A DNA stretch of 64,000 bases. It comes from Henricia sp. BOLD:AAB3569. Lineage: Eukaryota; Echinodermata; Asteroidea; Spinulosida; Echinasteridae. A program made the position numbers and the translations under genes. Positions within the stretch are counted from its first letter, which is position 1. Every line of letters starts with the position of its first letter. This document shows, one piece after another, positions 22,193 to 30,030 of the stretch. Location: positions 992,001 through 1,056,000 of the forward strand of contig JBBELK010000387.1 of NCBI GenBank assembly GCA_037783545.1, given 5' to 3'. The notes below the pieces were generated by a model. It searched no databases and had not been told where the DNA came from. It saw only the letters and a list, made by a program, of their open reading frames with translations.

Positions 22193-22201
22193 GTCCCGAC
22201 A
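22193..22201. repeat. Left 9-bp target-site duplication of the MITE
   Basis: GTCCCGACA, identical to 22597-22605. An uninterrupted monomer has this nonamer only once in the same context (ctgtcccgacactcccc), so the duplication is diagnostic of insertion. Removing the element plus one nonamer restores exactly 282 bp between monomer starts 22114 and 22800. Confidence 0.95.
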
Positions 22202-22226
22202 GCGTAATTTTTTTTCCCAGGATGGT
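22202..22226 (+). repeat. Left terminal inverted repeat of the MITE
   Basis: Perfectly complementary over 25 bp to 22572-22596. After a mismatch at the next base the arms still match for a few bases (aag). The T8 tract here mirrors the A8 tract at the right end. Confidence 0.95.
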
Positions 22227-22236
22227 AAAGGCCATT

Positions 22237-22248
22237 GAGAATATTCTC
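22237..22248. repeat. 12-bp palindrome in the MITE
   Basis: GAGAATATTCTC is a perfect palindrome. It contains the inverted GAA/TTC arrangement of a minimal heat-shock element (nGAAnnTTCn), which could equally be chance in AT-rich DNA. A second palindrome, ATGAATATTCAT, lies at 22272-22283. Confidence 0.6.
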
Positions 22249-22357
22249 TGCTTTTGATTGGTGCATTGTAAATGAATATTCATATTTTCTATATAGCGCC
22301 CTCAAGAGTTATTAAATAAAAGGGATATAAGAAAGAAAATTTAAGGGTTTGTCGAGT

Positions 22358-22430
22358 CGTTTGGTAGTCTAGTGGTTAAGACGTGGGACTATTAATCGAG
22401 AGATTGTGGGTTCGAATCTCTTCTCTCGTA
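22358..22430 (+). pseudogene. tRNA-like (Lys/Asn-type) Pol III unit inside the MITE
   Basis: The spacing is that of a tRNA. An A box TAGTCTAGTGG lies at 22365-22375. A D-stem GTC/GAC pairs 22367-22369 with 22380-22382. The anticodon-type loop CTATTAA (22389-22395) has ATT at the anticodon position. A B box GGTTCGAATCT lies at 22409-22419, one base from consensus. The distances from tRNA position 8 to 32 and from the anticodon arm to the T arm match a tRNA-Lys layout. The acceptor arms (22358-22364 and 22423-22429) do not pair and the anticodon stem pairs poorly. It is therefore a tRNA-derived or decayed gene, not a working tRNA. It may still be a Pol III promoter. Confidence 0.7.
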
Positions 22431-22431
22431 G

Positions 22432-22438
22432 TTTTTTT
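22432..22438 (+). terminator. T7 run, Pol III-type terminator
   Basis: Seven consecutive T residues start 13 bases after the B box ends. Four or more Ts on the non-template strand are sufficient to stop RNA polymerase III, so the tRNA-like unit has promoter boxes and a terminator in the right order. Confidence 0.6.
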
Positions 22439-22571
22439 CTTCATTAATTGAGGAAAGACCTATAGTCTAACTCTCGAACCACGCAGTTGTGTTAAGTGAC
22501 AGCTATCAACAAAACACTTCAGTATGCAATATATGCATGTGGTTAGGCCAATCAGGAGCAATCTTCCCTTA

Positions 22572-22596
22572 ACCATCCTGGGAAAAAAAATTACGC
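22572..22596 (-). repeat. Right terminal inverted repeat of the MITE
   Basis: Exact reverse complement of 22202-22226, ending AATTACGC. The satellite resumes immediately with the second target-duplication copy. Confidence 0.95.
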
Positions 22597-22605
22597 GTCC
22601 CGACA
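22597..22605. repeat. Right 9-bp target-site duplication of the MITE
   Basis: GTCCCGACA. It continues directly into the normal monomer sequence ctcccctttgg. Confidence 0.95.
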
Positions 22606-25543: not shown

Positions 25544-28500
25544 TTGACAGACTTTCGCCGGCAAATTGCAGAGAAACTTCAATATGTAGGGAAATTTCCT
25601 GCTTGCTCCGCAACCCGTGGCTGTCCCGACACTCCCCTTTTGTGTACTCCTGACTCGTGCGCATGCGTAGGCCTTTGAATGGTCGTTGTCGCACCCCAGT
25701 TTGGGACGGCAATTTGGTTAAAGTGTGGTCCAAACGTCGGCAAATTTGGAGGTCGAAAAATTTTCTGACGAACCTCAAATTTTGCATGGTCCAAGCAGTC
25801 TATATTCCGCACCTCTCCTAAAAAACTGACAGACTTTCGCCGGCAAATTGCAGAGAAACTTCAATATGTAGGGAAATTTCCTGCTTGCTCAGCAACCCGT
25901 GGCTGTCCCGACACTCCCCTTTGTTGTACTCCTGACTCGTGCGCATGCGTAGGCCTTTGGATGGTCGTTGACGCACCCCAGTTTGGGACGGCAATTTGGT
26001 GAAAGTGTGGTCCAAACGTCGGCAAATTTGGAGGGCGAAAAATTTTCTGACGAACCTCAAATTTTGCATGCTCCAAGCAGTCTATATTCCGCACCTCTCC
26101 TGAAAAATTGACAGACTTTCGCCGGCAAATTGCAGAGAAACTTCAATATGTAGGGAAATTTCCTGCTTGCTCCGCAACCCGTGGCTGTCCCGACACTCCC
26201 CTTTGGTGTACTCCTGACTCGTGCGCATGCGTAGGTCTTTGGATGGTCGTTGACGCACCCCAGTTTGGGACGGCAATTTGGTCAAAGTGTGGTCCAAACG
26301 TCGGCAAATTTGGAGGTCGAAAATTTTTCTGACGAACCTCAAATTTTGCATGCTCCAAGCAGTCTATATTCCGCACCTCTCCTAAAAAATTGACAGACTT
26401 TCGCCGGCAAATTGCAGACAAACTTCAATATGTAGGAAAATTTCCTGCTTGCTCCGCAACCCGTGGCTGTCCCGACACTCCCCTTTGGTGTACTCCTGAC
26501 TTGTGCGCATGCGTAGGCCTTTGGATGGTCGTTGACGCACCCCAGTTTAGGACGGCAATTTGGTCAAAGTGTAGTCCAAACGTCGGCAAATTTGGAGGTC
26601 GAAAAATTTTCTGACGAACCTCAAATTTTGCATGCTCCAAGCAGTCTATATTCCGCACCTCTCCTAAAAAATTGACAGACTTTCGCCGGCAAATTGCAGA
26701 GAAACTTCAATATGTAGGGAAATTTCCTGCTTGCTCCGCAACCCGTGGCTGTCCCGACACTCCCCTTTGGTGTACTCCTGACTCGTGCGTCAAAGTGTGG
26801 TCCAAACGTCGGCAAATTTGGAGGTCGAAAATTTTTCTGACGAACCTCAAATTTTGCATGGTCCAAGCAGTCTATATTCCGCACCTCTCCTAAAAAACTG
26901 ACAGACTTTCGCCGGCAAATTGCAGAGAAACTTCAATATGTAGGGAAATTTCCTGCTTGCTCAGCAACCCGTGGCTGTCCCGATACTCCCCTTTGGTGTA
27001 CTCCTGACTCGTGCGCATGCGTAGGCCTTTGGATGGTCGTTGACGCACCCCAGTTTGGGACGGCAATTTGGTCAAAGTGTGGTCCAAACGTCGGCAAATT
27101 TGGAGGTCGAAAAATTTTCTGACGAACCTCAAATTTTGCATGCTCCAAGCAGTCTATATTCCGCACCTCTCCTGAAAAATTGACAGACTTTCGCCGGCAA
27201 ATTGCAGAGAAACTTCAATATGTAGGGAAATTTCCTGCTTGCTCCGCAACCCGTGGCTGTCCCGACACTCCCCTTTTGTGTACTCCTGACTCGTGCGCAT
27301 GCGTAGGCCTTTGAATGGTCGTTGTCGCACCCCAGTTTGGGACGGCAATTTGGTTAAAGTGTGGTCCAAACGTCGGCAAATTTGGAGGTCGAAAAATTTT
27401 CTGACGAACCTCAAATTTTGCATGGTCCAAGCAGTCTATATTCCGCACCTCTCCTAAAAAACTGACAGACTTTCGCCGGCAAATTGCAGAGAAACTTCAA
27501 TATGTAGGGAAATTTCCTGCTTGCTCAGCAACCCGTGGCTGTCCCGACACTCCCCTTTGTTGTACTCCTGACTCGTGCGCATGCGTAGGCCTTTGGATGG
27601 TCGTTGACGCACCCCAGTTTGGGACGGCAATTTGGTGAAAGTGTGGTCCAAACGTCGGCAAATTTGGAGGGCGAAAAATTTTCTGACGAACCTCAAATTT
27701 TGCATGCTCCAAGCAGTCTATATTCCGCACCTCTCCTGAAAAATTGACAGACTTTCGCCGGCAAATTGCAGAGAAACTTCAATATGTAGGGAAATTTCCT
27801 GCTTGCTCCGCAACCCGTGGCTGTCCCGACACTCCCCTTTGGTGTACTCCTGACTCGTGCGCATGCGTAGGTCTTTGGATGGTCGTTGACGCACCCCAGT
27901 TTGGGACGGCAATTTGGTGAAAGTGTGGTCCAAACGTCGGCAAATTTGGAGGTCGAAAATTTTTCTGACGAACCTCAAATTTTGCATGCTCCAAGCAGTC
28001 TATATTCCGCACCTCTCCTAAAAAATTGACAGACTTTCGCCGGCAAATTGCAGACAAACTTCAATATGTAGGAAAATTTCCTGCTTGCTCCGCAACCCGT
28101 GGCTGTCCCGACACTCCCCTTTGGTGTACTCCTGACTTGTGCGCATGCGTAGGCCTTTGGATGGTCGTTGACGCACCCCAGTTTAGGACGGCAATTTGGT
28201 CAAAGTGTAGTCCAAACGTCGGCAAATTTGGAGGTCGAAAAATTTTCTGACGAACCTCAAATTTTGCATGCTCCAAGCAGTCTATATTCCGCACCTCTCC
28301 TAAAAAATTGACAGACTTTCGCCGGCAAATTGCAGAGAAACTTCAATATGTAGGGAAATTTCCTGCTTGCTCCGCAACCCGTGGCTGTCCCGACACTCCC
28401 CTTTGGTCTACTCCTGACTCGTGCGTCAAAGTGTGGTCCAAACGTCGGCAAATTTGGAGGTCGAAAATTTTTCTGACGAACCTCAAATTTTGCATGGTCC

Positions 28501-28815
28501 AAGCAGTCTATATTCCGCACCTCTCCTAAAAAACTGACAGACTTTCGCCGGCAAATTGCAGAGAAACTTCAATATGTAGGGAAATTTCCTGCTTGCTCAG
28601 CAACCCGTGGCTGTCCCGATACTCCCCTTTGGTGTACTCCTGACTCGTGCGCATGCGTAGGCCTTTGGATGGTCGTTGACGCACCCCAGTTTGGGACGGC
28701 AATTTGGTCAAAGTGTGGTCCAAACGTCGGCAAATTTGGAGGTCGAAAAATTTTCTGACGAACCTCAAATTTTGCATGCTCCAAGCAGTCTATATTCCGC
28801 ACCTCTCCTGAAAAA
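25544..28815 (+). repeat. 1636-bp higher-order repeat, two tandem copies
   Basis: Copy 1 is 25544-27179 and copy 2 is 27180-28815. Each has five 282-bp monomers and one 226-bp monomer. Shared private markers include cttttgttgtactcc, ggtgaaagtgtgg, ggagggcgaaa and gtgtagtccaaac, all offset by 1636. Only a few differences are seen, for example ggtcaaag near 26280 versus ggtgaaag near 27914. This is one of the youngest duplications in domain B. Confidence 0.92.
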
Positions 28816-29178
28816 TTGACAGACTTTCGCCGGCAAATTGCAGAGAAACTTCAATATGTAGGGAAATTTCCTGCTTGCTCCGCAACCCGTGGCTGTCCCG
28901 ACACTCCCCTTTGGTGTACTCCTGACTCGTGCGTCAAAGTGTGGTCCAAACGTCGGCAAATTTGGAGGTCGAAAAATTTTCTGACGAACCTCAAATTTTG
29001 CATGGTCCAAGCAGTCTATATTCCGCACCTCTCCTAAAAAACTGACAGACTTTCGCCGGCAAATTGCAGAGAAACTTCAATATGTAGGGAAATTTCCTGC
29101 TTGCTCAGCAACCCGTGGCTGTCCCGATACTCCCCTTTGGTGTACTCCTGACTCGTGCGCATGCGTAGGCCTTTGGAT

Positions 29179-29232
29179 GGTCGTTAACGCACCGCAGTTT
29201 GGCTCGGTCGTTAACGCACCGCAGTTTGGGGC
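29179..29232 (+). repeat. 27-bp tandem duplication at the left edge of the insertion
   Basis: Two copies (29179-29205 and 29206-29232) of a segment starting ggtcgttaacgcaccgcag. Both share gttaac and accgcag in place of the satellite gttgac and accccag. I did not find these changes in other monomers. The second copy lies outside the monomer register, so it belongs to, or was created with, the insertion. Confidence 0.85.
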
Positions 29233-29574
29233 GGTCGGGTTGGCGTACGGGTTCTTTCCTCGCTGGCCTGTGATGACCGCTTTCCAAAGGACTACCCTTG
29301 CACATAGGTAGTTTGGAGGAGTTTTTCGCGGAATCCCGTGATGTCCTGGAACGTTGCTCAATGATGGAGTGACCAGTACGTACGTCACGGGGAACGCCGA
29401 TGCAATTTTGGAACACGATTGGATCCGAGTCTGCGGTCTTGATTCTTCCAGACCTGGACTGGTGACGATTGTGGTTTTATGAGGATGTACCTGTGGTGCT
29501 TCTCGAAGGATATGACCTGATACTCAGACACGATCGACCAAGATTGGTGATGATTGTGATGGAGAATACTCGCC

Positions 29575-29850
29575 GGATAATGACCTGGATTGGCAACGAC
29601 AACGAATGATGAAATTTGGTGGATAAATGACCTGGACTGGCAACGACAACGAATGAGGAAATTTGGCAATAACGGCGAACAATTGGTGGATAAATGACCT
29701 GGACTGGCAACGACTACGAATGAGGAATTTTGGCAATAACGGCGAACGCTTAGTGGATAAATGACCTGGACTGGCAACGACTACGAATGAGGAAATTTGG
29801 CAATAACGGCGAACGCTTAGTGGATAAATGACCTGGACTGGCAACGACAA
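29575..29850 (+). repeat. 67-bp minisatellite within the insertion
   Basis: The core gacctggactggcaacgac recurs at 29629, 29696, 29763 and 29830, exactly 67 bp apart. A shorter 47-bp first unit starts at 29582 (gacctggattgg). A diverged core also lies at 29451 (gacctggactggtgacg), so the array may once have been longer or built from the unique left part. Units differ by a few bases (gacaacg/gactacg; gaacaattgg/gaacgcttag). Because 67 is not a multiple of three, minus-strand open frames across it rotate phase and are not genes. Confidence 0.93.
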
Positions 29851-29897
29851 CGCCTGAAGCACTGGTTCTATCGGTAACAACGTTGGACTGGTTAGCG

Positions 29898-29921
29898 TGT
29901 TTTATTCGGACGAATAAAACA
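29898..29921. repeat. Near-terminal palindrome of the insertion
   Basis: Arm TGTTTTATTCG, two-base spacer GA, then its exact complement. The right arm contains AATAAA (29913-29918), and an A-rich stretch (agaaaaag) follows just before the satellite resumes at 29933. It could be a hairpin end of a mobile element or a polyadenylation signal; the sequence does not decide. Confidence 0.8.
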
Positions 29922-30030
29922 TTTTAGAAAAAGGCAATTTGGTTAAAGTGTGGTCCAAACGTCCGCAAATTTGGAGGTCGAAAAATTTGCATGGTCCAAG
30001 CAGTCTATATTCCGCACCTCTCCTAAAAAA

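Follow-up and report, generated by a model that had tools for sequence, protein, structure and literature searches.

How a tRNA-like Pol III unit came to lie inside a DNA transposon, and whether the unit matters to the transposon that carries it, are the questions raised by a short insertion in the 64,000-nucleotide stretch of Henricia sp. DNA analysed here (the window). The surrounding satellite repeats in units of about 282 bp, and into it an element has inserted that begins GCGTAAT (a 5'-GC terminus), has GTCCCGACA as a 9-bp target-site duplication (TSD) on both sides, and ends in terminal inverted repeats (TIRs, GCGTAATTTTTTTTCCCAGGATGGT) whose outermost bases all pair (25/25). The unoccupied site, probed with a 24-base string that spans it, recurs 204 times in the window's satellite; the insertion is therefore clean, and the preliminary description of a TIR DNA transposon inside a satellite, with 25-bp inverted repeats and a 9-bp target duplication, is thereby confirmed. 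Nine stop-to-stop frames of at least 40 aa overlap the element, all of them crossing its edges into the satellite (the longest 116 aa), and no frame of this size was found wholly within it. Elsewhere in the array, an 826-bp island of low-multiplicity sequence at 29173-29998 contains 67-bp tandem repeats (GTGGATAAATGACCTGGACTGG...), and the 2-kb bin 28001-30000 is the sole bin of the window with positive GC skew. The features of the window copy are collected in Table 1.

Table 1. Features of the family-A element and its insertion site, in window coordinates.
Feature	Position	Strand	Basis
Left target-site duplication GTCCCGACA	22193..22201	.	repeat of right TSD and unoccupied site in satellite units
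MITE, family A (395-bp nonautonomous DNA transposon)	22202..22596	+	TIRs, TSD, genome copies
Left TIR, 25 bp perfect, arms reaching 30 nt at 97%	22202..22226	+	arm comparison
Left arm	22256..22357	+	near-identical in family-B copies that retain it
tRNA-derived segment, Rfam tRNA model positions 7-64 of 71, without acceptor stem	22364..22423	+	Infernal match
A box TAGTCTAGTGG	22365..22375	+	consensus comparison
B box GGTTCGAATC	22409..22418	+	consensus comparison
T7 run, Pol III-terminator-like	22432..22438	+	letters read
Right arm	22439..22566	+	contains TTAATTGAGGAAAGA
Right TIR	22572..22596	-	arm comparison
Right target-site duplication GTCCCGACA	22597..22605	.	repeat of left TSD

The interior was then compared with all Rfam families using Infernal (601 bases), which recovered the tRNA model at 25.7 bits and E = 0.0045, not reaching the gathering score of 29, the D arm, the anticodon loop and the T loop following one another in the correct order. 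The acceptor stem lies outside this match, and non-standard pairs occur in the anticodon stem (two of five) and in the T stem (one). Scored against consensus strings, the best arrangement of A box, B box and TTTT reached 22 of 23, a value attained by none of 2000 dinucleotide shuffles of the element. ARAGORN, in its bacterial-code setting, called no tRNA in the window, and the putative transcript folded no better than shuffles (z -0.91, with 38 of 200 shuffles folding at least as well) and gave no cloverleaf. Considering the acceptor stem outside the match and the non-standard pairs, we read the core as a truncated, probably tRNA-derived and promoter-bearing fragment, not as a tRNA gene. The correct spacing of A box, B box and T7 reported in the preliminary description thus stands, its term 'complete-looking' does not.

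To what extent the core belongs to the element was assessed across the genome (740.7 Mb, 2104 contigs). From 1237 first-look candidates, 40 full-length copies were scored at 98-100%, the window's own included, and the TIR 25-mer at no more than two mismatches was detected at 263 places (control 0). So that copies were not chosen by their core, we sampled 50 loci by their ends, namely the first 30 from the TIR 25-mer search and 20 stretches hand-picked from its list, including long pairs and single ends; eight of the 50 have one end only and are outside the counts. All 15 distinct short insertions (386-411 bp) contain the core, and none of the 14 distinct long insertions with the same TIR (993-7645 bp) does. 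The preliminary description had proposed searching for copies with the same ends and asking whether all carry the core, and had offered a chimeric family as one reading; the core is indeed integral to the short element, and is furthermore found in a second family with other TIRs (see below). Mean divergence is 1.65% across 42 copies of subfamily A1 and 0.7% across the eight copies read of subfamily A2. The window element belongs to a young family and is no one-off nested SINE.

The long, core-less insertions have the outermost ~33 bp in common with the short family A and are related to one another. The two longest stretches between MITE-type TIR ends, of 6.7 kb (L069:571-7258) and 7.6 kb (L070:532-8176), are 98% alike over 3.2 kb and hold 144-bp tandem repeats; they may be composites, since their flanking 9-mers do not match. 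GATTGG/CCAAT-type motifs are located near both family-A ends, and most of the printed long copies have ATTTGCAT close to either end; each may be a protein-binding motif.

Target choice follows a near-strict motif. Among the TSDs of 55 element matches, 41 are exact 9-bp duplications, five have one mismatch and nine are otherwise, the last including some truncated, nested or family-B copies as well as some full-length ones. Without exception, the exact TSDs carry C as their fourth base (C4) and G as their sixth (G6), 41/41 for each; at position 5, 38 have C or G, and the GC content is 78% vs 50% in the flanks. Analogously, nine of the 14 long insertions have an exact TSD, eight of these nine with C4 and G6, and the long insertion at locus L012 (CGTGGGGGT) departs from the motif. 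With TIRs pairing at 25/25, a constant TSD length (exact in 41/55) and near-identical short copies without coding capacity, the short family is a MITE family.

The second family, B, has a different TIR, GCGATATTTTTTTCCGTACC, and an interior common to both families. It was first recognized in two loci and five more copies were then read, seven in all, with the copy at L113 lacking the left part; genome-wide, 65 ends match the family-B TIR at no more than two mismatches. Of the TSDs around the six copies that retain both ends, two are exact, three agree at 8 of 9 positions and one at 7 of 9. Compared to the window copy, the left arm agrees at 88/92 (L019) and 88/94 (L110) positions, and in deletion-bearing copies at 72/75 (L032), 66/68 (L111), 52/56 (L112) and 43/44 (L109); L113, without a left arm, gives 69/95 in a forced alignment. 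The tRNA-like unit agrees at 48-58 of 56-65 positions and the right arm at 89-93 of 109-122. The A box is identical to that of the window copy in five of the seven and matches at 10/11 in the other two, and the B box likewise is identical in five and matches at 9/10 in two. In the simplest history that we infer from these comparisons, the unit predates the separation of families A and B.

Several family-B loci have a structure of their own. L111, L112 and L113 are broken at one and the same base, just before TTTGGTAG and 5 bp upstream of the A box, and the DNA at the L113 break has no match in the other fetched loci. On contig C303 of genome G000 (255229-261260) the family-B TIR occurs four times in steps of ~2.0 kb, which suggests a tandem array containing the element. 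At L018/L019 (C23:2092103-2093939) a long and a family-B element lie adjacent, flanked by copies of GGCCGGGGC and separated by GGCCGGCGT; judged from this order, one element apparently used the target-site duplication of the other.

Aggregated, these data point towards a MITE moved by DNA transposition and carrying a truncated tRNA-derived segment acquired once, most likely as an inherited passenger, an explanation we consider probable. The nonautonomous element would be mobilized as DNA by a transposase acting in trans, the existence of which is suggested by the TIRs, TSDs and target motif observed, and which would generate 9-bp duplications at C4/G6 target sites. The interior segment, seemingly derived from a tRNA, extends from A box to B box without an acceptor stem and is followed by the T-run. 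A common ancestor of both families would have acquired it once, and the copies read show it in members of both. Family A itself may be a recombinant, in which the TIRs of the long core-less family (with the outer 33 bp alike) were placed on a family-B interior, as the pattern of similarity suggests. Binding of Pol III factors to the tRNA segment, or its transcription, may persist, and the spread of the element is presumably independent of this.

The strongest competitor to a passenger is a unit that works, where TFIIIC or Pol III occupancy, or a transcript of ~80 nt, would aid the element through open chromatin, insulation or a small RNA, with the boxes under selection. Across the 42 A1 copies, diversity is 0.0043 in the A box and 0.0095 in the B box vs 0.0281 in the remaining unit, as would be expected from such selection, the figures resting on 21 box sites and a plain comparison; the two arms have 0.0152 and 0.0143 and the whole element 0.0165, whereas the right TIR is similarly low (0.0090). 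Congruent with function are also the near-maximal promoter arrangement that no shuffle reached, the run of at least four T behind the B box in 37/38 printed cores, and the boxes retained in family B. Against it, subfamily A2 has spread with one identical changed A box, TAGTCTAGTAG, in 8/8 copies read, and the B box is changed in 14 of the 38 printed cores (GGTTCGAATC in 24, GGATCGAATC in 11, other changes in three). Moreover, between the families the core is no better conserved than the left arm of those copies that have one. Because A2 spread recently with a changed A box, and changed B boxes are common, intact boxes seem unnecessary for copying; the unit is therefore better seen as a passenger, perhaps transcribed, and transcription does not look required for the spread. 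We consequently hold a functional unit to be unlikely. No less doubtful is the farther-reaching version, that a TFIIIC-binding promoter of tRNA origin, captured by two related MITE families, still recruits the Pol III machinery at several hundred loci, which would make the copies dispersed chromatin openers or insulators and sources of a short RNA, in effect SINE counterparts that move by cut and paste.

How the putative passenger entered its carrier brings up a further alternative, that a SINE or tRNA retropseudogene is simply nested in this MITE. In the family-B copy at L109, a 9-bp direct repeat, TCGAGTCGT, is present on both sides of the tRNA-like unit, and several printed cores retain GAGTCGT on the 3' side, as an old target duplication would leave. 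The repeat could mean that a truncated tRNA copy inserted there long ago and that the MITE contributed the T-run, and may thus mark the route by which the ancestor acquired the segment; as the full 9-bp repeat surrounds the core in one of 11 copies examined (L109), it stays a hint. A recent event in the window copy is excluded, because sister copies at other loci also carry the unit, and no direct repeat of at least 9 bp was found in the window copy. The preliminary description had taken core-less members with a visible nested duplication as the sign of a simple nested insertion. The empty site predicted for such members was absent from the genome when one 30-mer pattern was searched at up to three mismatches, a tolerance by which a more diverged site would be missed. 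No SINE tail is present, and simple nesting is accordingly very improbable. An origin as a SINE found no support: the copies have TIRs for ends, a TSD fixed at 9 bp and no tail.

The number of cores in the genome was determined separately. A 35-mer reaching from the A box to the anticodon loop was recovered at 601 places at no more than three mismatches, the exact core 15-mer TAGTGGTTAAGACGT at 577, and the latter with TTAATTGAGGAAAGA 50-80 bp downstream at 428, each with a control of 0. The 149 of the 577 exact sites that have no exact downstream arm were mostly counted only; among 100 exact-15-mer places listed, 14 were outside the with-arm set when compared by eye, and the two of these that were read (L024 and L111) are ordinary members with an arm that does not contain the exact 15-mer. 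Core presence was read directly in a subset of the several hundred places, and no free-standing tRNA-like unit was demonstrated; the places counted only, the majority, could include such copies.

As to the tRNA affinity of cores other than that of the window, the family-A copy at L032 scored 23.6 bits and the copy at L106 21.7 bits against the Rfam model, and no tRNA match at E <= 1 was obtained for L035, L019 or the family-B copy at L032. Within L098 and L109-L113, the core matched in L113 alone, weakly (19.2 bits, E = 1.6), and the other five gave no match at E <= 5. With the low tRNA scores of family-B and A2 copies, it is chiefly the A1 cores that support a tRNA origin. ARAGORN, applied to 12 loci, found no tRNA in any core; its single call, a separate tRNA-Leu (taa) at L101:1021-1101 (-), served as positive control for tRNA detection. 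This gene (46.3 bits) is situated ~290 bases from an A2 copy. A 30-base core pattern had no matches in viral contigs. That the tRNA likeness is a coincidence in an A+T-rich MITE interior would agree with the window score below the gathering value, the weaker or missing matches of other copies and the silence of ARAGORN on the cores, yet is hardly credible given the E value against all Rfam families, the three tRNA parts in order and the shuffles, none of which reached the box arrangement.

An inherited passenger of this kind means that a tRNA-derived, Pol III promoter-like unit would have been multiplied by DNA transposition, not retroposition, to several hundred places in one genome, and that elements of this type would be misclassified wherever annotation treats A and B boxes as diagnostic of SINEs. 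Should TFIIIC occupy the copies, they would amount to a ready-made series of Pol III promoters, matched in sequence and scattered over the genome. Some subfamilies have one box altered, so that copy success and local chromatin could be compared directly between intact and changed boxes. The C4/G6 target motif provides a handle for finding the transposase.

We also examined candidates for that transposase. The MULE domain has 19 matches in the genome and the Merlin DDE_Tnp_IS1595 domain 20; compared by eye with the TIR places listed (100 of 263 of family-A type, the exact ones up to contig 376, and 65/65 of family B), no match of either domain lay closer than 10 kb to any of them. The KDZ transposase has 0 matches here and 0 in the control genomes. 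L069 and L070 hold 12 stop-to-stop ORFs of 100 aa or longer, some of them outside the element. As possible traces of an autonomous partner, 10 of these 12 were compared with Pfam, and the one match was at chance level (E = 0.3). MITE-like families in ascidians and transposons carrying tRNA sequences have been reported, and we hence claim no priority. None of the open-access papers listed mentions a MITE with a tRNA-derived Pol III unit in its title or abstract opening.

Among known systems, the 9-bp TSD fits both Mutator-like elements and Merlin, as these are outlined in two published accounts. Merlin elements are there given TSDs of 8-9 bp and a conserved terminal 5'-GG (PMC8101967); the TSD length is shared, but the present termini are 5'-GC. 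MULEs are described with TSDs of 8-11 bp, and Rehavkus with a TSD of 9 bp and a minisatellite before the 3' TIR (PMC6446971). To these, the present elements are similar in the 9-bp TSD, within the MULE range, and in the 144-bp tandem repeats of the 6.7- and 7.6-kb relatives with the same TIR; they differ from that outline in the near-strict C4/G6 target motif, and no MULE transposase was linked to the TIRs at the places compared. Tailless tRNA retropseudogenes (PMC5322556) resemble the core in the truncated tRNA-derived segment and, in one copy (L109), in the flanking direct repeat, whereas the present segment has apparently been multiplied by DNA transposition. With tRNA-derived SINEs the element has in common the A box, the B box and the T-run, an internal Pol III promoter at the sequence level; unlike them, it has TIRs and a fixed 9-bp TSD with a target motif, and no tail. 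Finally, it is like the MITEs of the 9-bp-TSD group in being short, in its TIRs, its constant TSD length and its homogeneous copies, and in the window copy's lack of an internal frame of at least 40 aa, and differs from them in an interior that includes a tRNA-derived, Pol III promoter-like unit.
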